In this document: piece by piece, positions 1,286-29,350 of the stretch
Layout of the letters: the number at the start of each line of letters is the position of its first letter
Numbering within the stretch: the first letter of the stretch is position 1
Assembly: GCA_009694215.1 (NCBI GenBank)
Contig: SHVN01000018.1
Coordinates: 1 to 36,970 of the forward strand
Source of the DNA: Xanthobacteraceae bacterium
Lineage (GTDB): Bacteria > Pseudomonadota > Alphaproteobacteria > Rhizobiales > Xanthobacteraceae
Reading direction: 5' to 3'
DNA: 36,970 nt
The notes under the pieces: generated by a model
What the model was told of the DNA's origin: nothing
The model's database searches: none
What the model saw: only the letters and a program-made list of their open reading frames with translations
Position numbers and translations under genes: made by a program

Positions 1286-1299
1286 TTGATCCGGATCAA
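1286..1299. promoter_or_regulatory. FNR/FixK-type binding site upstream of hemA
   Basis: TTGAT-CCGG-ATCAA is a perfect palindrome matching the FNR/FixK consensus TTGAT-N4-ATCAA. It lies in the divergent hemA/isochorismatase region, centred about 128 bp before the hemA ATG. Oxygen control of hemA through FixK-type regulators is known in Bradyrhizobium, so activation of hemA under low oxygen is a reasonable inference. The site could also act on the divergent gene. Confidence 0.75.
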
Positions 1300-1420
1300 T
1301 CACAAGCCGCTGATTCACGGCCAACTAACGCCTCGACAAGCAGCGTGGAAGCCTTCTAAATTGAGTCACTCGAAGCGCAGCCAAATTGTAACAACCGGCC
1401 GGAATAGGCTTGGAATTCCC

Positions 1421-2647
1421 ATGAAGTACGATGCGTTTTTTGCTGCCGCCCTGGATCGTCTGCACGAGGAGCGGCGCTACCGGGTGTTTGCCGATCTCGA
1501 GCGCATCGCCGGCCGCTTCCCGCACTCGATCTGGCATGCGCCGCAGGGCCCCCGCGAGGTCGTGATCTGGTGCTCCAACGACTACCTCGGCATGGGCCAA
1601 CACCCCAAGGTGATCGGCGCCATGGTCGAGACCGCGACGCGGATGGGAACCGGCGCCGGCGGCACCCGCAACATCGCCGGAACTAACCATCCGCTGGTCG
1701 AGCTCGAGCGCGAGCTCGCCGACCTGCACGGCAAGCCTTCGGCGCTCGTTTTCACCTCGGGCTATGTGTCGAACCAGACCGGCATCCCGACCATCGCCGG
1801 GCTCATCCCGAACTGTCTGATCCTGTCGGACGAATACAACCACAACTCGATGATCGAGGGCATCCGCCATGCCGGCTGCGACAAGCAGATTTTCCGGCAC
1901 AACGATCTTGGCCATCTCGAAGAGCTACTGAAGGCGGCCGGCACCCGGCCGAAGCTGATCGCCTTCGAGAGCATCTATTCGATGGACGGCGACATCGCCC
2001 CGATCAACGCGATCTGCGATCTCGCGGAGCGCTACGGCGCGATGACCTATATCGACGAGGTGCACGCGGTCGGCATGTACGGCCCGCGCGGCGGCGGCGT
2101 TGCCGAACGCGATGGCGCAATGCACCGCATCGACGTGATCGAGGGCACGCTCGGCAAGGCGTTCGGCTCGCTCGGCGGCTATATCGCAGCGAGCGCCGAC
2201 ATCTGCGACGCGGTTCGCTCCTACGCGCCGGGCTTCATCTTCACCACCGCGCTGCCGCCTGCGGTCTGCGCGGCGACGGTCGCGGCAATCAAGCACCTCA
2301 AGACCTCGACCTGGGAGCGCGAGCGCCACCAGGAGCGCGCGGCGCGCGTGAAGGCCGTGCTCACCGCGGCGGGCCTGCCGGTGATGGATTCGCCCACGCA
2401 TATCGTGCCGGTGATGGTCGGCGACCCGGAGAAGTGCAAGGCGGCGAGCGACCGGCTCCTGTCCGAGCACGGCATCTACATCCAGCCTATCAACTATCCG
2501 ACCGTGCCGAAGGGCACCGAGCGGCTGCGCATCGCGCCGTCGCCCTATCACGACGACGGACTGGTGGATGCGCTGGCCGAGGCCCTGGTCGAGGTCTGGC
2601 AGGAGCTCGGCCTGCCATTGAAGCAGCGCCAGATCGCGGCGGAATAG
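1421..2647 (+). CDS. hemA: 5-aminolevulinate synthase
   Basis: This 408-residue PLP enzyme condenses glycine and succinyl-CoA to 5-aminolevulinate, the first step of heme synthesis by the C4 route used in alphaproteobacteria and mitochondria. The protein starts MKYDAFF and has the typical features of the alpha-oxoamine synthase fold: a substrate-site stretch NDYLGMG, the [13 protein letters not shown] segment, the YIDEVHAVG motif, and the PLP-binding Lys246 in GTLGKAFGS. Length is normal for the family. The frame is open upstream to 1286, but that extension is not family-like, and ATG 1421 gives the standard N-terminus. The FNR/FixK palindrome at 1286-1299 suggests oxygen regulation. Its stop codon directly abuts that of the convergent AbrB-family gene. 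Confidence 0.97.
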
Positions 2648-3763
2648 TCAGTCCTCGATCGTCGGCCGCGTCGCACCCGGCGGGCGCTCGCGCATCGGCT
2701 TGTCCGGCCCGCGGCGGAACCGATACGCCAGGAACGGCATCAGCATCGACACCAACAGGAAGCGCGACAGGTGCAGCGCGCCGACAAACACCGGGTCGAG
2801 ATGCAGCGCCAGCGCCAGCACCATCATGGTGTCCTGCGCGCCGGGCGCGAAGGCGACCACGGCGTCGGCTATCCGCACCGACATCAGCGCGGTCAAGACC
2901 AGGACCGACAGCGCCGCGATCGTCATCGCCACCGCGAAGGACCCCAGCGCCGCGCCGAGGAAGCGCAGCAGCGTCCGCGGATCGGTGTTGGCAAAGCGCG
3001 AGCCGGTGACAGCGCCGATGCCGATCACCGCCGCATAGACCGCCCACCACGGCAAGGTGGCATGAATGATCCCGACGCCGTGGAGGATGGCGGACGCCAG
3101 CATGGCGCCGAACATCAGCCCGCCCGGGAACCGCAGCCGCCAGACCAGCAGCGCCGCCGCCGTCGATACGACGACGAGAACGGCCAGATCGGCGATTGAA
3201 GCCGGCCCGGCGGCGGTGAAGCGCGCTAGGAGCCCGCCCTCCGCCGTCAGGCCGAAAAAGGAAAGCCCGGCGGGAATGCCGATGGTCAGCGCCACCACGC
3301 GCATGGTCTGCACGATCGCGATGGCGCGCAGGTCCGCCTTGTACTCGGCCGACAGAACCATCACCTGCGCCAACGCGCCGGGGCTCGCCCCGAACAGCGC
3401 CGATTGCGCGTCCCAGCCATGCACAAAGCGCAAGTACGACGCGGTGGCGGCCATCATGCAAAGGGTCGAGATCGCGAGCATGGCGACGCTGAGCGGAAAC
3501 GCGGCCAGTCCCTTCAGCGTCTCCGGCGTCACCACGGCGCCGAGCGAGATGCCGACCAGCACCGAGATCGCCCGCGACAGCGGCGCGGGAACGAGAACCG
3601 GCCGGCCCAGCAGCGCCGCGGTCGCCACTCCGAGCAGCGAGCCGGTGACGAGGCCGGCAGGAAAGCCGAGCCAGGTCAGGATCATCCCGCCCACGGCCGC
3701 AGCCGACAGCGTTTCGGCGGCGCGCAGCCACTCGCTTTTCGCTAGGATCGAAGGGGACGCCAT
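2648..3763 (-). CDS. AbrB-family integral membrane protein (often mislabelled ammonia monooxygenase)
   Basis: This is a very hydrophobic protein of 371 residues with about ten predicted membrane segments arranged as two similar halves. The first half carries SPGALAQVMVL and the second APGAQDTMMVLAL, the duplicated signature of the AbrB membrane family. Members are putative transporters or regulators of unclear function. They are frequently annotated as ammonia monooxygenase, which is not justified. ATG 3763 is taken as start; TTG 3775 is possible, and neither has a clear Shine-Dalgarno sequence. It is convergent with hemA with no base between the two stops. Confidence 0.85.
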   Translation of the reverse strand: MASPSILAKSEWLRAAETLSAAAVGGMILTWLGFPAGLVTGSLLGVATAALLGRPVLVPAPLSRAISVLVGISLGAVVTPETLKGLAAFPLSVAMLAISTLCMMAATASYLRFVHGWDAQSALFGASPGALAQVMVLSAEYKADLRAIAIVQTMRVVALTIGIPAGLSFFGLTAEGGLLARFTAAGPASIADLAVLVVVSTAAALLVWRLRFPGGLMFGAMLASAILHGVGIIHATLPWWAVYAAVIGIGAVTGSRFANTDPRTLLRFLGAALGSFAVAMTIAALSVLVLTALMSVRIADAVVAFAPGAQDTMMVLALALHLDPVFVGALHLSRFLLVSMLMPFLAYRFRRGPDKPMRERPPGATRPTIED

Positions 3764-3860
3764 CCGCGCGATCAATGCCGCGCCAATCCGGCGGCGTCAA
3801 ACCCCGGCGCGAAGCACGATCCGCACCAGATCGGCGGTATTCCTGGCGCCAATGGCTCCG

Positions 3861-23983: not shown

Positions 23984-24138
23984 GCTCGTCTCACGCTCGC
24001 AACGGAACGATGAGCGGGCCGCCAGGCTCCGCCATTGCCCGGCCGGCGCCGGGAGGGTCAAGTTTTCGGCGTAAAACCGTGATCTGTGCGGACCGCGGTC
24101 GCCTTCCTATCTAAGATGGCGTGCCACTGGAGAACGCC

Positions 24139-25557
24139 ATGAATCCGAACGCCCCCCTCCTCGACCGCGCCGGCCTGGACAAGGTCCGCGTCGGCAAGCT
24201 GATCGACCGCGGGCTCGAGGGCGCCGACGATGGCGAGCTGTTCCTCGAATACAAGCAGTCCGAGATGCTGGTGTTCGACAATGGCCGGCTGAAGCAGGCG
24301 ACCTATGACACCAATCAGGGCTTTGGGATGCGCGCGGTGAAGGACGAGGCGGTGGGCTATGCGCATGCCTCCGATGTTTCGGAAGCGGCGATTTCGCGCG
24401 CGGCGGACGCGGTGCGCGCCGTAAAGGGCGGCCATTCCGGCAAATACGCCGAGGCGCCGGGCCGCACCAACGTGAAGCTCTATTCCGACGACAATCCGCT
24501 CGAAGCGCCCGGCTTCGACGCCAAGGTGAAGCTCTTGGAAACCATCGATGCCTATGCGCGCGCGAAGGACCAGCGCGTCCGCCAAGTCACCGCGAGTCTC
24601 GGCGCGTCCTGGCAGGTGGTCGAGATCGTGCGGCCCGACGGCCAGACCTACCGCGACATCCGCCCGCTGGTGCGCGTGAACGTGTCGGTGGTGGCGGCGT
24701 CCGGCGACCGGCAGGAATCCGGCTCCTACGGCTACGGCGGCCGCGAGGGCTATCAGAATTTCATCAGTGCCAAAACCTGGGAGCACGCCGCCGACGAGGC
24801 GGTGCGCATGGCGCTGCTCAACCTGGAATCGATACCGGCGCCGGCCGGCGAGATGAATGTGGTGCTCGGCGCAGGCTGGCCCGGCGTCATGCTGCATGAG
24901 GCGGTCGGCCACGGCCTCGAAGGCGACTTCAACCGCAAGAAGACGTCCGCCTTTGCCGGCCTGATGGGCCAGCAGGTGGCGGCCAAGGGCGTCACCGTCG
25001 TCGACGACGGCACGATCCAGAGCCGGCGCGGCTCGCTGTCGATCGACGACGAGGGCACGACGACCAACCGCACCGTGCTGATCGAGGACGGCATTCTCGT
25101 CGGCTACATGCAGGACCGCCAAAACGCGCGGCTGATGAACATGAAGCCCACTGGCAACGGCCGGCGCGAGAGCCACGCGCATGTGCCGATGCCGCGGATG
25201 ACCAACACCTACATGACCGCGGGCGACCGCGATCCGGCAGAGATCATCGCCTCGGTGAAGAACGGCGTGTACTGCGTCAACCTCGGCGGCGGGCAGGTCG
25301 ACATCACCTCGGGCAAGTATGTGTTCAACGTCACCGAGGCCTACAAGGTCGAGAACGGCAAGCTCGGCGCGCCGCTGAAGGGCGCCATGCTGATCGGCAA
25401 CGGGCCGACCGATCTCAAGCGGGTGATGATGGTCGGCAACGACCTCAAGCTCGACACCGGCGTCGGCACCTGCGGCAAGAACGGCCAGGGCGTGCCGGTC
25501 GGCGTCGGCCAACCGACGCTGCTGATGGAGCGGATCACGGTCGGCGGGACAGGCTGA
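24139..25557 (+). CDS. tldD: Metalloprotease TldD
   Basis: This 472-residue protein is TldD, which with TldE/PmbA forms a peptidase that processes modified peptides such as microcins and degrades unfolded peptides. The zinc motif HExxxH is present as HEAVGH at residues 253-258, and the C-terminal half has RRGSLSIDDEGT and the VENGKLGAPLKGAMLIGNG stretches of the family. ATG 24139 with TGGAGA upstream is preferred over GTG 24121. Its stop directly abuts the stop of the convergent PAN pseudogene. TldD next to ialB and coxB is a familiar rhizobial order; here other genes lie between. Confidence 0.95.
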   Translation: MNPNAPLLDRAGLDKVRVGKLIDRGLEGADDGELFLEYKQSEMLVFDNGRLKQATYDTNQGFGMRAVKDEAVGYAHASDVSEAAISRAADAVRAVKGGHSGKYAEAPGRTNVKLYSDDNPLEAPGFDAKVKLLETIDAYARAKDQRVRQVTASLGASWQVVEIVRPDGQTYRDIRPLVRVNVSVVAASGDRQESGSYGYGGREGYQNFISAKTWEHAADEAVRMALLNLESIPAPAGEMNVVLGAGWPGVMLHEAVGHGLEGDFNRKKTSAFAGLMGQQVAAKGVTVVDDGTIQSRRGSLSIDDEGTTTNRTVLIEDGILVGYMQDRQNARLMNMKPTGNGRRESHAHVPMPRMTNTYMTAGDRDPAEIIASVKNGVYCVNLGGGQVDITSGKYVFNVTEAYKVENGKLGAPLKGAMLIGNGPTDLKRVMMVGNDLKLDTGVGTCGKNGQGVPVGVGQPTLLMERITVGGTG

Positions 25558-26145
25558 TTACCTGACAACGCCCGACATGCAGCACGGCCGCCGCCGCGGC
25601 GCCGTGTTCCTATCCTTGAGATAGCACCGCGCCGAAGGCGAACCGTATCCCGGACACACATAGGACCACGCGCGGCAGCGGTTCTCGCCTTCGCAGGCCT
25701 GCACGCAGGCCGCAACATCCTGGTTGGCCGGAATCTCGAAGTTGCGATAGTCGCCGCCATAGCGGTCGATCGAATTCTCGACCGGACCCGAACGCATCTC
25801 GACCAGCGCCGCGCCCTTGACGCCGGACGCGCAGCACCGGTTTTCGACGAGCGGCTTCACCTGGTTCTTCAGCTAGCATGTGGCGAGGTTACTGCCGCCG
25901 AGCGCGGCGGTGCCCGGATAGGAAAAGGTCCACGCCCGGCAGCGGCCGTCGCGGTCACAGCGCGCCGAACACACGGCGGGATCGCCGGACGGCACCGTGA
26001 AGCGCGCATAGTCGCCGCCCGGCCGGTCGAAGCCGGTCTGCGCGCGAGCGGGGCCGGTCGCGAGGGCAAAGAGCGCAAGCCCGCACAGGCCCGCGGCCAA
26101 CAATCGCATCAGTGCCGCTGCGGTCCGATCGATGCATCGCCGCAT
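25558..26145 (-). pseudogene. Exported PAN/Apple-domain protein interrupted by an amber codon
   Basis: The frame encodes a signal peptide (MRLLAAGLCGLALFALAT..ARAQ) and two PAN/Apple-like domains. Each has the pattern GGDYxxF followed by cysteine pairs: CSARCDRDGRCRAWTFSYPG, then CVQACEGENRCRAWSYVCPG. A TAG at 25873-25875 falls after NLATC in the first domain and before LKNQVKPLVENRCCASG. Related domains have CWLK at that spot, so TGG (Trp) became TAG by one base. The frame continues intact to the natural TAA at 25558. It is therefore a recent nonsense mutant, a sequencing error, or a readthrough case. The start is uncertain (26145 or 26109). Confidence 0.8.
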
Positions 26146-26331
26146 GTTAAAGCATGATCCCAAAAAGGGGGACCGGTTTTGCCCGCAGCCGGCAAGCGGC
26201 TGATAGAAAAGAATGCGCCCGCCGGGGGGCGGCGGGCGCAGCATCCGGAGAGCGGAGGGGAGACCGCCGTTCCGGACGGTGGCCGATGGGAGGATCGGCC
26301 AAGACTGAAACACAACGAGACGAAACCCTGT

Positions 26332-26727
26332 TCAGACCAGATAGCGCGCCGAACGGTCGGCCGACGGGTAGCAGGGGATCGGCGGCGTCCCGAACAATTC
26401 GCTCGAGACCGTGGTGATCGGTACGCAACGCGCGTCCTGCCGCCTCCGCCGGCTGCCGCGCCGCTCCGCGGCACGGCGCGCCAGCACTTCGCTCGGGTCG
26501 CGCCACGGCGCCACGGCATAGGCGTCGCGCAGGTCGCTGCGGTTCAAGCCGATGTCAGCCAGCATGCGGTCGTCGAGTTCGGCAAGGCGCCTCGCCTCGT
26601 GACGGTTTTTGATCACCCCGGCGAGCCGCTTGAGGCCTTGCCGCGCAAGGCCGGCAAGCCCGGAGACCGCGCGGCCCAAAGGCGCCGCACCCGAGATGGC
26701 ATAGAGAGGAAATGGCAGGCATGACAC
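26332..26727 (-). CDS. DUF1127 (YjiS-like) protein
   Basis: The core LKRLAGVIKNRHEARRLAELDDRMLADIGLNRSDLRDA is a clear DUF1127 domain, a small arginine-rich helical module of alphaproteobacteria linked in some species to phosphate and carbon metabolism or RNA turnover. A basic tail with RRGSRRRRQD and an unusual proline-containing C-terminus follow. The start is unclear. GTG 26727 is in frame, but the AGGAG ribosome site fits better with ATG 26722, which is in another frame. This suggests either a non-standard start or a small indel near the 5' end. The gene is divergent from the LysR regulator. Confidence 0.7.
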   Translation of the reverse strand: MSCLPFPLYAISGAAPLGRAVSGLAGLARQGLKRLAGVIKNRHEARRLAELDDRMLADIGLNRSDLRDAYAVAPWRDPSEVLARRAAERRGSRRRRQDARCVPITTVSSELFGTPPIPCYPSADRSARYLV

Positions 26728-26847
26728 GCTCCTATTTCGTCCGGAAAATGCGGCAGGGACACCCTTTCGGGCCGCCGCATCGCTGCGGAGCCACCCAAAA
26801 TGCCCACCCGTATTTCCCCTGGACCATGGATAATTAGTGGCTCCCCA

Positions 26848-26876
26848 TTGATAAGTAGAACGAATGTTTTTAATAT
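26848..26876 (+). promoter_or_regulatory. Sigma70-type promoter of the LysR gene
   Basis: TTGATA (26848-26853) and TAATAT (26871-26876) are separated by 17 bases, close to the ideal housekeeping promoter. Transcription would begin near 26883, about 60 bases before the LysR start codon. Confidence 0.65.
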
Positions 26877-26877
26877 A

Positions 26878-26896
26878 ATCAATCATTTATAGTGAT
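26878..26896. promoter_or_regulatory. Candidate LysR-type box (T-N11-A)
   Basis: ATCA-N11-TGAT fits the T-N11-A inverted-repeat rule for LysR-family regulators. It overlaps the predicted transcription start of the LysR gene itself, a position expected for autorepression. It could also control the divergent DUF1127 gene. Confidence 0.5.
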
Positions 26897-26944: not shown

Positions 26945-27826
26945 ATGAGCGCCCTGATCGACGTCGACCAACTGCGCACCTTCATCGCGATCGTGGAGAC
27001 CGGCAGCTTCACCAAGGCCGCCGAGGTCGTACACAAGACCCAGTCCGCGGTGTCGATGCAGATGAAGCGGCTCGAGGAGCGGCTCGGCAAGCCGGTCTTC
27101 GCGCGCGACGGCCGCGCCTCCAAACTCACCGAGGACGGCGAGCGGCTGCTCGACTACGCGCGGCGCATCATCAAGCTCAACGTCGATGCGCTCGCCGCCT
27201 TCGACGACAAGGAACTGAGCGGCCGGGTGCGGCTCGGCCTGCCCGACGACTACGCCGACCGCTATCTGCCGGAGATCATGGCACGGTTCTCGCGCGCCTA
27301 TCCCGGCGTCGAGCTCACGGTGCTGTGCCAGCCGTCGGTCGACCTGGTGGAGCTGATCGACGCAAACGAACTCGATCTTGCGATCATCACCGACTGCGGC
27401 TCGTCGCGCGCGTCGGAGGCGTTCCGCCGCGAGCGGCTGTTGTGGGTAACGTCGAACCGTCATTCGACGCATCTGGAAGAACCGCTGCCGCTTGCGCTCG
27501 GGCGGCCGAGCTGCGGCTGGCGGCGCGCGGCGATCGAATGCCTGGAGACGATCGGGCGGCCGCATCACATCGCCTACACCAGCGCCAACGCCGGGGCGGT
27601 GGCAGCCGCGGTGCTGTCGGGCCTCGCGGTTTCGATATTCCCGGAATCAGGCCTGCGCCCCGGCATGCGCGTGCTCAGCCCCGCAGATGGATTCCCCGAA
27701 CTGCCGGCCTGCCGCGTCGGCCTGATCCGCAATCCGCACGAGAGCCTGTCGCTCGCCGACGCGCTCGCCGAGCACATCATCTCCTCGCTCGACAACCTTT
27801 CGGAAGCGGCTCGGGCGGCGGAGTAG
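26945..27826 (+). CDS. LysR-family transcriptional regulator
   Basis: This 293-residue regulator has an N-terminal winged helix-turn-helix (about residues 7-66, with TFIAIVETGSFTKAAEVVHKT then QSAVSMQMKRLEERLG) and a C-terminal periplasmic-binding-like effector domain. Within the latter, VRLGLPDDYADRYLPEIMARF and LDLAIITDC are clear. The domain resembles the LrhA/HexA-like branch, but the effector is unknown. GGAGAG lies 8 bases before the ATG. Its own promoter overlaps a T-N11-A site, suggesting autoregulation. It is convergent with gshA across a palindromic repeat. Confidence 0.93.
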   Translation: MSALIDVDQLRTFIAIVETGSFTKAAEVVHKTQSAVSMQMKRLEERLGKPVFARDGRASKLTEDGERLLDYARRIIKLNVDALAAFDDKELSGRVRLGLPDDYADRYLPEIMARFSRAYPGVELTVLCQPSVDLVELIDANELDLAIITDCGSSRASEAFRRERLLWVTSNRHSTHLEEPLPLALGRPSCGWRRAAIECLETIGRPHHIAYTSANAGAVAAAVLSGLAVSIFPESGLRPGMRVLSPADGFPELPACRVGLIRNPHESLSLADALAEHIISSLDNLSEAARAAE

Positions 27827-27985: not shown

Positions 27986-29350
27986 TCAGTACGCGTATTC
28001 GTCGAAGATCGGCTCGACCGAACCCTTCCACGGTCCGTGGAATTTTTCCAGAAGCTCCTCCGCGGGCGTGATGCCACGCGCCACGACCTCCTGGAGCGGC
28101 CGGAGATACCGCGTCTCGTCGTGGCCGTTGCGATCGAGCTTGTTGCGGCGCGCGAGCCCCTTCTCGGCGAGCCGCAGCAGTACCACAGCCAGATCGAGGG
28201 TGTACTGATTGCGAATGAGCGCCCTAAAGCCGAGGCGCGGCACGTCGTCGCGCAATTTCTGGCGTTCCTCGGCGGTCCAGTCCTTCACGACCTCCCAGCA
28301 GGCGTCGAGATTGGCATCGTCGTAGATGAGGCCCACCCAGAACGCCGGCAACGACGGCAGGCGGCGCCAGGGGCCGCCATCGGAGCCGCGCATCTCGATG
28401 TAGCGCTTGAGCCGCACCTCGGGGAAGATGGTCGAGACGTGATTCACCCAGTCCGAAATCGTTGCGCGGTCGCCGGGAATGAGCTTGCCCGCGAGATGAT
28501 CGCGAAACGATTTTCCGGAGACGTCGATGTAGCTGTCGCCGCGCTTGATGAAATACATCGGCACGTCGAGTGCGTAATCGGCGTAGCGCTCGAAGCCCAT
28601 GCCAGGCTCGAACGCCCAGGGCAGCATGCCAGAGCGCGCATTATCGGTATCGCGCCAGATCTCGGAGCGGAACGACACGAAGCCGTTGGGCTTACCTTGC
28701 GTGAGCGGCGAGTTGGCGAACAGCGCGGTGCCGACCGGCTGCAGCGCCAGCGCGACCCGAAGCTTTTTCACCATGTCGGATTCGGAGGAGAAGTCGTGGT
28801 TCGATTGCACTGTGCAGGTGCGGTACATCATGTCGAGGCCGAGCGTGCCCACCTTCGGCATATAGGCCGTCATGATCTTGTAGCGGCCCTTCGGCATCTG
28901 CGGGATGTCGGCGCGGTTCCAGTTCGGCGTCATGCCGAGGCCGAGGAAGCCGATGCCGAGCGGCTTTGCCACCTCGCGCACCTGCGCCAGATGCGCCATC
29001 AGCTCGTTGCAGGTCTGGTGGATGGTCTCGACCGGCGCGCCGGATAATTCGAACTGGCCGCCGGGCTCAAGCGAGATCGCGCCGCCGCCGGTCACATCGG
29101 CGAGCCCGATGATGTTCTCACCCTCCATGATCGGCTCCCAGCCGAGCAGATGCTGCATGCCGTCGAGCAGCGCCCGGATGCCGCGCGGACCGCCGTAGGG
29201 CACCGGCCCGTGGCCGTTCACGGCAAAGGCGAACTTCTCATGCTCAGTGCCGACGCGGAATTTCGCCTTCGGCTTGCAGCCCGCCTCAAACCACGCGACC
29301 AACTCGTCGCGCGATTCGATCGGCGTCATGTCGACTTGGTCGCGAGCCAT
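27986..29350 (-). CDS. gshA: Glutamate-cysteine ligase
   Basis: This 454-residue enzyme joins glutamate and cysteine with ATP, the first step of glutathione synthesis. It belongs to the alphaproteobacterial/plant-type class, different from the E. coli type. Family cues are FRVGTEHEKFAF (31-42), GGAISLEPGGQFELSGAP, TCTVQSNHDFSSE and KRYIEMRGSDGGPWRRLPSLPAFWVGL, with the C-terminal GPWKGSVEPIFDEYAY. Length is normal. It stands alone, convergent with the LysR gene and 83 bp downstream of the methyltransferase gene on the same strand. Confidence 0.96.
   Translation of the reverse strand: MARDQVDMTPIESRDELVAWFEAGCKPKAKFRVGTEHEKFAFAVNGHGPVPYGGPRGIRALLDGMQHLLGWEPIMEGENIIGLADVTGGGAISLEPGGQFELSGAPVETIHQTCNELMAHLAQVREVAKPLGIGFLGLGMTPNWNRADIPQMPKGRYKIMTAYMPKVGTLGLDMMYRTCTVQSNHDFSSESDMVKKLRVALALQPVGTALFANSPLTQGKPNGFVSFRSEIWRDTDNARSGMLPWAFEPGMGFERYADYALDVPMYFIKRGDSYIDVSGKSFRDHLAGKLIPGDRATISDWVNHVSTIFPEVRLKRYIEMRGSDGGPWRRLPSLPAFWVGLIYDDANLDACWEVVKDWTAEERQKLRDDVPRLGFRALIRNQYTLDLAVVLLRLAEKGLARRNKLDRNGHDETRYLRPLQEVVARGITPAEELLEKFHGPWKGSVEPIFDEYAY

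Follow-up and report, generated by a model that had tools for sequence, protein, structure and literature searches.

The DNA analysed here, the whole of which is called the window, is a stretch of 36,970 nt from a Xanthobacteraceae bacterium. The first-pass annotation had reported two places in it where convergent genes meet stop codon to stop codon with no intervening base, and both are indeed present, at 2645-2650 and 25555-25560. The genes and features concerned are the following.

1286-2647, plus strand: open reading frame of a 5-aminolevulinate synthase-like gene (hemA), 453 aa, PF00155, stop TAG at 2645-2647
2648-3775, minus strand: PF05145 gene (named AbrB; Pfam), convergent with hemA, stop TGA (complement TCA at 2648-2650)
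2645-2650: first stop-to-stop junction, TAG/TCA, gap 0
24121-25557, plus strand: tldD, metalloprotease subunit, PmbA_TldD domains and HExxxH motif (HEAVGH), stop TGA at 25555-25557
25555-25560: second stop-to-stop junction, TGA/TTA, gap 0, the vacant form of a slot filled by ccdAB in some relatives
25558-25872, minus strand: 3' part of a gene with a PAN domain, following an in-frame TAG, stop TAA (complement TTA at 25558-25560)
25873-26313, minus strand: open reading frame of the 5' part of the PAN-domain gene, ending at the in-frame TAG at 25873-25875 (complement CTA)

The name hemA is taken from the first-pass annotation, Pfam assigns the product to aminotransferase class I/II, and we infer that the true start is likely near 1421. 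At the first junction the hemA and PF05145 reading frames are both open. The genes of the second junction are not both intact, since the PAN-domain gene consists of two pieces in one frame, split by the in-frame TAG, and translation from its proper start would therefore stop 315 nt short of the abutting codon. The 5' part contains a signal-peptide-like start (by eye), and the PAN frame is open for 104 codons in the window versus at least 184 in 15 other measured genomes, a comparison that covers only frames not running into the edge of the locus. Calling PAN a pseudogene was fair in view of this TAG, with the caution that the genome is a draft assembly (77% complete, 198 contigs). A strong GC hairpin trailed by a T-rich stretch is found on the minus strand at 26214-26240, past a DUF1127 open reading frame (26332-26886) and ahead of the PAN gene. 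The product of tldD has both hallmarks of the TldD/E protease, the PmbA_TldD domains and HExxxH, the latter being the metal site of TldD/E (PMC5810440). A TldD paralogue with 24% identity, presumably TldE, is encoded in the same genome (at G000:C108, G000 being the genome of the window).

The distances between the stop codons vary among relatives at both places. The ends of hemA and the PF05145 gene are readable in nine of 11 same-genus genomes, the window counted, and they are convergent in all nine, with gaps of 0, 2, 53, 5, 8, 373, 11, 1 and 6 nt; seven of these lie between 0 and 11, and the remaining two are 53 (G006) and 373 (G004). Read in the hemA direction, the 53-nt spacer of G006 contains a strong hairpin followed by a weak T tract. 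An additional small reading frame was seen by eye in the 373-nt spacer of G004; this frame, of about 65 codons and on the hemA strand, lies in the hemA/PF05145 junction at L070, 11111-11483 (Rhodoplanes piscinae MAG MaH-04nov19-66). At another locus (L080, CATPBC010000353.1) the PF05145 frame overruns the hemA stop by 100 nt into hemA, so that either the assembly is wrong here or the two convergent genes share a long overlap. On the tldD side, gaps were tabulated for 19 genomes out of 30 loci with a PAN match inside the locus, the remaining 11 being left out, and in three of the 19 the PAN frame touches the locus edge. Besides the window, a single genome from a different genus (G029) has a gap of 0, and the other 17 have gaps from 10 to 1294 nt; the nine same-genus values are 0, 626, 41, 180, 10, 35, 626, 190 and 12. 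Exact abutment is not conserved among relatives at either junction.

The frequency of such gaps was estimated from a background sample of 1.55 Mb from three genomes of the family, comprising 317 kb of G000 plus the window, 800 kb of G003 (same genus) and 400 kb of G036 (same family), the latter two being single-contig genomes. Genes were called with a simple caller of our own, which is likely to under-call, with 279 genes in 354 kb, and which missed the PAN pieces, so that the second junction lies outside the resulting set of 203 convergent pairs. With the stricter threshold, a gap of 0 was found in six of the 203 pairs, the first junction of the window among them, and in five of 202 once the window's own pair was removed; a looser calling threshold gave eight of 219. 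The commonest value by far is -4 (22/203), gaps from 1 to 12 combined account for 29/203, and a third of the pairs (67/203) fall between -30 and +12. Overlaps of 1-30 nt are found in 20 of the 55 convergent pairs of G036. Exact abutment occurs about once per 260 kb sampled, and by rough arithmetic two abutments in 37 kb would have a chance of about 1% had the window been named in advance; it was not, and one of the two pairs involves a broken gene, which makes this figure weaker still, and the joint occurrence is regarded as a mild coincidence. The geometry of both junctions is ordinary tight packing, with a gap of 0 as one ordinary value. It resembles the tight convergent pairs described for prokaryotes, which have short gaps or overlaps and a jump at overlap length 4 (PMC2174442); no difference from the window's pairs was found, and these also end within a few nucleotides of each other.

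From the abutting stops the first-pass annotation had concluded that there is no room for a terminator and that each transcript must enter the opposite gene as antisense RNA. The former went too far, as terminators can sit within coding sequence: in E. coli, 23 of 116 genes that overlap convergently are reported to have a rho-independent terminator (PMC2174442), and a missing spacer is thus compatible with a terminator. Of the antisense claim, one half holds, since with zero spacer any mRNA 3' tail beyond the stop codon lies antisense to the neighbouring gene; the lack of a terminator does not follow from it. The standard, stricter scans found no intrinsic terminator at either junction, and a laxer scan gave weak matches with broken T runs at both, including a GC hairpin about 30 nt beyond the tldD stop, inside PAN, a match on the opposite strand about 60 nt beyond the PAN stop, inside tldD, and another that precedes the PF05145 stop by over 100 nt. 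In strength, the best hairpins of the junctions equal the window background of -19.0 (sd 3.3) kcal/mol, and hairpin plus T-run matches are no commoner in the scanned stretch than in shuffles. Elsewhere in the window, a GCS2 gene (27986-29350) converges with a LysR gene (26945-27826), and downstream of LysR, 40 nt within the 3' end of the GCS2 gene, lies a perfect 7-bp hairpin followed by TTTTT (28026-28042, plus strand), a candidate terminator inside the coding end of a neighbour. As far as predictions of this kind go, the scans fit transcript ends at the junctions that may be Rho-dependent, in-gene or weak.

Abutting stops might have been selected as an antisense device, with transcripts that overlap and regulate each other's 3' ends. 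The geometry does force some overlap of any 3' tail at both junctions, and a strong intrinsic terminator was seen at neither. However, both gaps vary among relatives, G006 has its 53-nt spacer with a strong hairpin between hemA and PF05145, and the PAN partner of the second pair is broken. Drift of the gap in relatives argues against selection for exact abutment, and because it is seen on the hemA and the tldD side, this explanation was set aside as very improbable.

In other genomes the second junction can be occupied. The nearest relative of the window by TldD (97%), G002, has 626 nt between tldD and PAN, and these encode CcdA and CcdB, while the window itself has no ccdA or ccdB at this place. 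An islet is recognized by a conserved site that is empty in a sister, and this is the arrangement found here, with a gap of 0 in G000 and 626 nt with ccdAB in G002. Searching for CcdB as PF01845 in 61 relatives, 39 of which have a TldD match, gave eight genomes, in six of which CcdB lies within 1.2 kb past tldD. In the family as a whole, CcdB was found in 21 of 391 genomes (a match is missing in 370), and in 20 of the 21 it is located inside the tldD/PAN interval on the tldD strand, the exception being G131. The CcdB match begins 293-1303 nt past the TldD match in these 20 slots. Judged by alignment score, a CcdA-like reading frame precedes ccdB on the same strand at every one of the 26 loci examined, namely the 20 family slots and six loci outside the family (it is partial in G088), and Pfam confirms CcdA in nine of nine and CcdB in four of four proteins submitted.

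Where ccdA adjoins tldD, nine loci were measured, and the distance from the stop of tldD to the start of ccdA was 51-69 nt in eight of them and 204 nt in the remaining one; G014 and G088 were left out, and G018 has other sequence there. Eight of the 20 slots contain a gene for signal peptidase between tldD and ccdA (tblastn, with Pfam PF10502 on one), and the same gene follows tldD in five genomes without ccdAB (tblastn). Three genomes, G318, G087 and G069 (L195, L197 and L207), carry about 0.9-1.0 kb of other sequence between ccdB and PAN, in which no signal peptidase match was found. Taken over the relatives, the slot is either empty or occupied by a signal peptidase gene, by a gene for methylguanine methyltransferase (G023) or by ccdA-ccdB running in the tldD direction. 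The ccdAB pairs are predicted toxin-antitoxin systems, and the function of the slot is likewise a prediction from sequence.

The residents of the slot are diverse. In a CcdB tree of 93 rows, whose bootstrap had not settled and which omits the two pieces of G044, 16 order-level and 40 phylum-level coordinate-only genomes and 21 of 30 phylum-level loci, the 20 slot CcdBs fall into three supported clades of 5, 6 and 9 members (100/99, 100/99 and 98/83). These clades cross genera, with g1, g3, g9 and g58 each having more than one. When two congeneric genomes differ in CcdB clade, their TldD proteins are 86-94% identical and their CcdB proteins 30-47% (9 pairs), and CcdBs of one clade average 55% across genera (range 32-75%, 44 pairs) and 62% within a genus (range 34-89%, 9 pairs), the ranges within and between clades overlapping and partial CcdBs being counted. 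A TldD DNA tree of 41 genomes, all of the family, includes 19 of the 20 residents, G249 being omitted because its TldD is cut by the contig start. On this tree the slot state needs 13 changes, and the three CcdB types alone need seven. The window and G002 are sisters (100/99) with opposite slot states, and the next branch, G007, has no ccdAB; the gap of 0 in the window leaves no ccdAB remnant. The CcdB match is partial in five genomes (G085, G088, G112, G014 and G069), which look as if they were decaying in place.

Several arrivals of ccdAB are favoured by these data over one. The opposite account is a single ancient islet that was inherited vertically and lost many times, the rapid evolution of CcdB mimicking several types. 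Such an origin stays compatible with the AU test, in which one clade for all 20 slot CcdBs is not rejected (p 0.117), the 370 family genomes without CcdB are as expected after loss, and identities within one clade also go down to 32-34%. Against it, same-genus CcdBs of different types share only 30-47% identity versus a mean of 55% for the same type in other genera, and the types interleave on the TldD tree. A single ancient islet is thus considered unlikely, and different ccdAB lineages most likely entered the tldD/PAN slot, were exchanged and decayed there.

A chromosomal ccdAB site with conserved flanks has a counterpart in E. coli. There, folA and apaH converge, and these flanks are not known to encode proteases. 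The ccdAB islet in the folA-apaH interval, a site called plastic, is similar in that ccdAB lies between two conserved genes and is absent from sister strains (PMC7232551); the slot described here differs in having tldD and PAN as flanks, in holding several CcdB types, and in that one flank encodes a protease tied to CcdA. This tie comes from E. coli, where tldD and tldE emerged from screens for CcdB resistance, their mutants being resistant, and where TldD/E degrades the CcdA41 fragment in vitro, while full-length CcdA is resistant (PMC5810440). The same paper describes the widely conserved genes tldD and tldE as elusive in function and mentions tld genes near lon, and in the portion consulted no mention of ccdAB near tldD was met. 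E. coli TldD/E with the F-plasmid ccdAB is comparable to the present case in the TldD with HExxxH and in the CcdA and CcdB homologues, which adjoin tldD in some relatives; the link in E. coli is genetic and biochemical, whereas here it is one of gene order (PMC5810440). No description of ccdAB beside tldD was found in the literature searched, and novelty is limited to that search.

One possible reason for ccdAB to stay next to tldD is that TldD/E controls CcdA turnover; their linkage would then hold the toxin module and its matching protease together through co-inheritance and perhaps co-transcription. Genomes outside the family bear on this. Searches there found CcdB in 48 of 397, 23 of 289 and 86 of 398 genomes, corresponding to 144 genomes as 13 were listed twice. 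TldD lies within 1.5 kb of ccdB in six of them, from three families, with about 0.15 expected by chance (rough arithmetic). Both genes are on the same strand in G610, G644 and G772, and in G780, G1236 and G1282 ccdB lies on the opposite strand, facing tldD across 16-20 nt. No TldD was found within 1.5 kb of ccdB in the other 138 genomes, among which some ccdB loci end at contig ends; these include all 58 CcdB genomes of other classes, and a coordinate check of 67 outside genomes found 18 without any TldD match. In two genomes of one genus in another family (G1347 and G1033; L303 and L304) the distance between ccdB and tldE is about 1.2 kb.

The slot was also considered as a general hot spot for toxin-antitoxin genes, with ParE_toxin (PF05016) as a control. 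This domain gave 156 matches in 42 of the 61 relatives (sum of per-genome counts), and none of the 150 matches listed lies within 5 kb of tldD (by eye), six further matches, in G004, G018, G033 and G059, being outside that list. The hot-spot explanation was dropped, as no ParE was near tldD among the 150 matches listed.

For a functional co-location of ccdAB and tldD speak the resistance screens and the in vitro degradation of CcdA41 by TldD/E (PMC5810440), the position of 20 of the 21 family CcdBs, the recurrence in three outside families, one of them with a different orientation, the proximity of ccdB to the partner gene tldE in two genomes, the lack of ParE near tldD among the matches listed, and the narrow range of spacers before ccdA in eight of nine measured adjacent loci. 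On the other hand, the link is missing from 138 of the 144 outside CcdB genomes, TldD itself was not found in some of them, and in eight of 20 slots tldD and ccdA are not adjacent, a signal peptidase gene lying between them. Moreover, full-length CcdA resisted TldD/E in vitro (PMC5810440), and the E. coli ccdAB is likewise found at one fixed plastic site, folA-apaH (PMC7232551). On this evidence functional co-location is possible but doubtful.

We consider it highly probable that both sites of the window are tight convergent pairs whose stop codons abut at present, and that the tldD/PAN interval is a labile slot, vacant in the window. The pairings themselves are old, and the spacer drifts through stop-codon shifts, small indels and gene insertions, zero being one value of many. 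Residents of the slot would arrive by horizontal transfer and be kept there, as insertions are tolerated between convergent genes and residents are carried across by the homologous flanks; the transcripts at the junctions would end by Rho or by in-gene termination, leaving short antisense tails. A sober reading of the slot goes no further than this insertion-tolerant convergent site, which passes its residents on via conserved flanks. A bolder one, which we put forward tentatively, is that linkage to tldD matters; it is favoured by the occurrence in three families besides this one, in one of them with the genes oriented differently, and the absence of the link from 138 of 144 outside genomes, together with the signal peptidase gene in eight slots, argues against it.

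The abutting stops are themselves ordinary, and the interest of the window lies in the vacant ccdAB slot behind its second junction, beside tldD. It may be, though we hold it with some doubt, that ccdAB is time and again attracted to, or retained at, a protease gene whose product controls its antitoxin, and that tldD-ccdAB forms a functional unit in the Xanthobacteraceae and some other alphaproteobacteria. If so, the abutting stops of the window would be that same site without ccdAB. The link between TldD/E and ccdAB rests so far on E. coli and the F-plasmid toxin, and native ccdAB pairs beside tldD, along with the empty slots of their sisters, would provide natural matched pairs in which the connection between TldD/E and CcdA could be tested.
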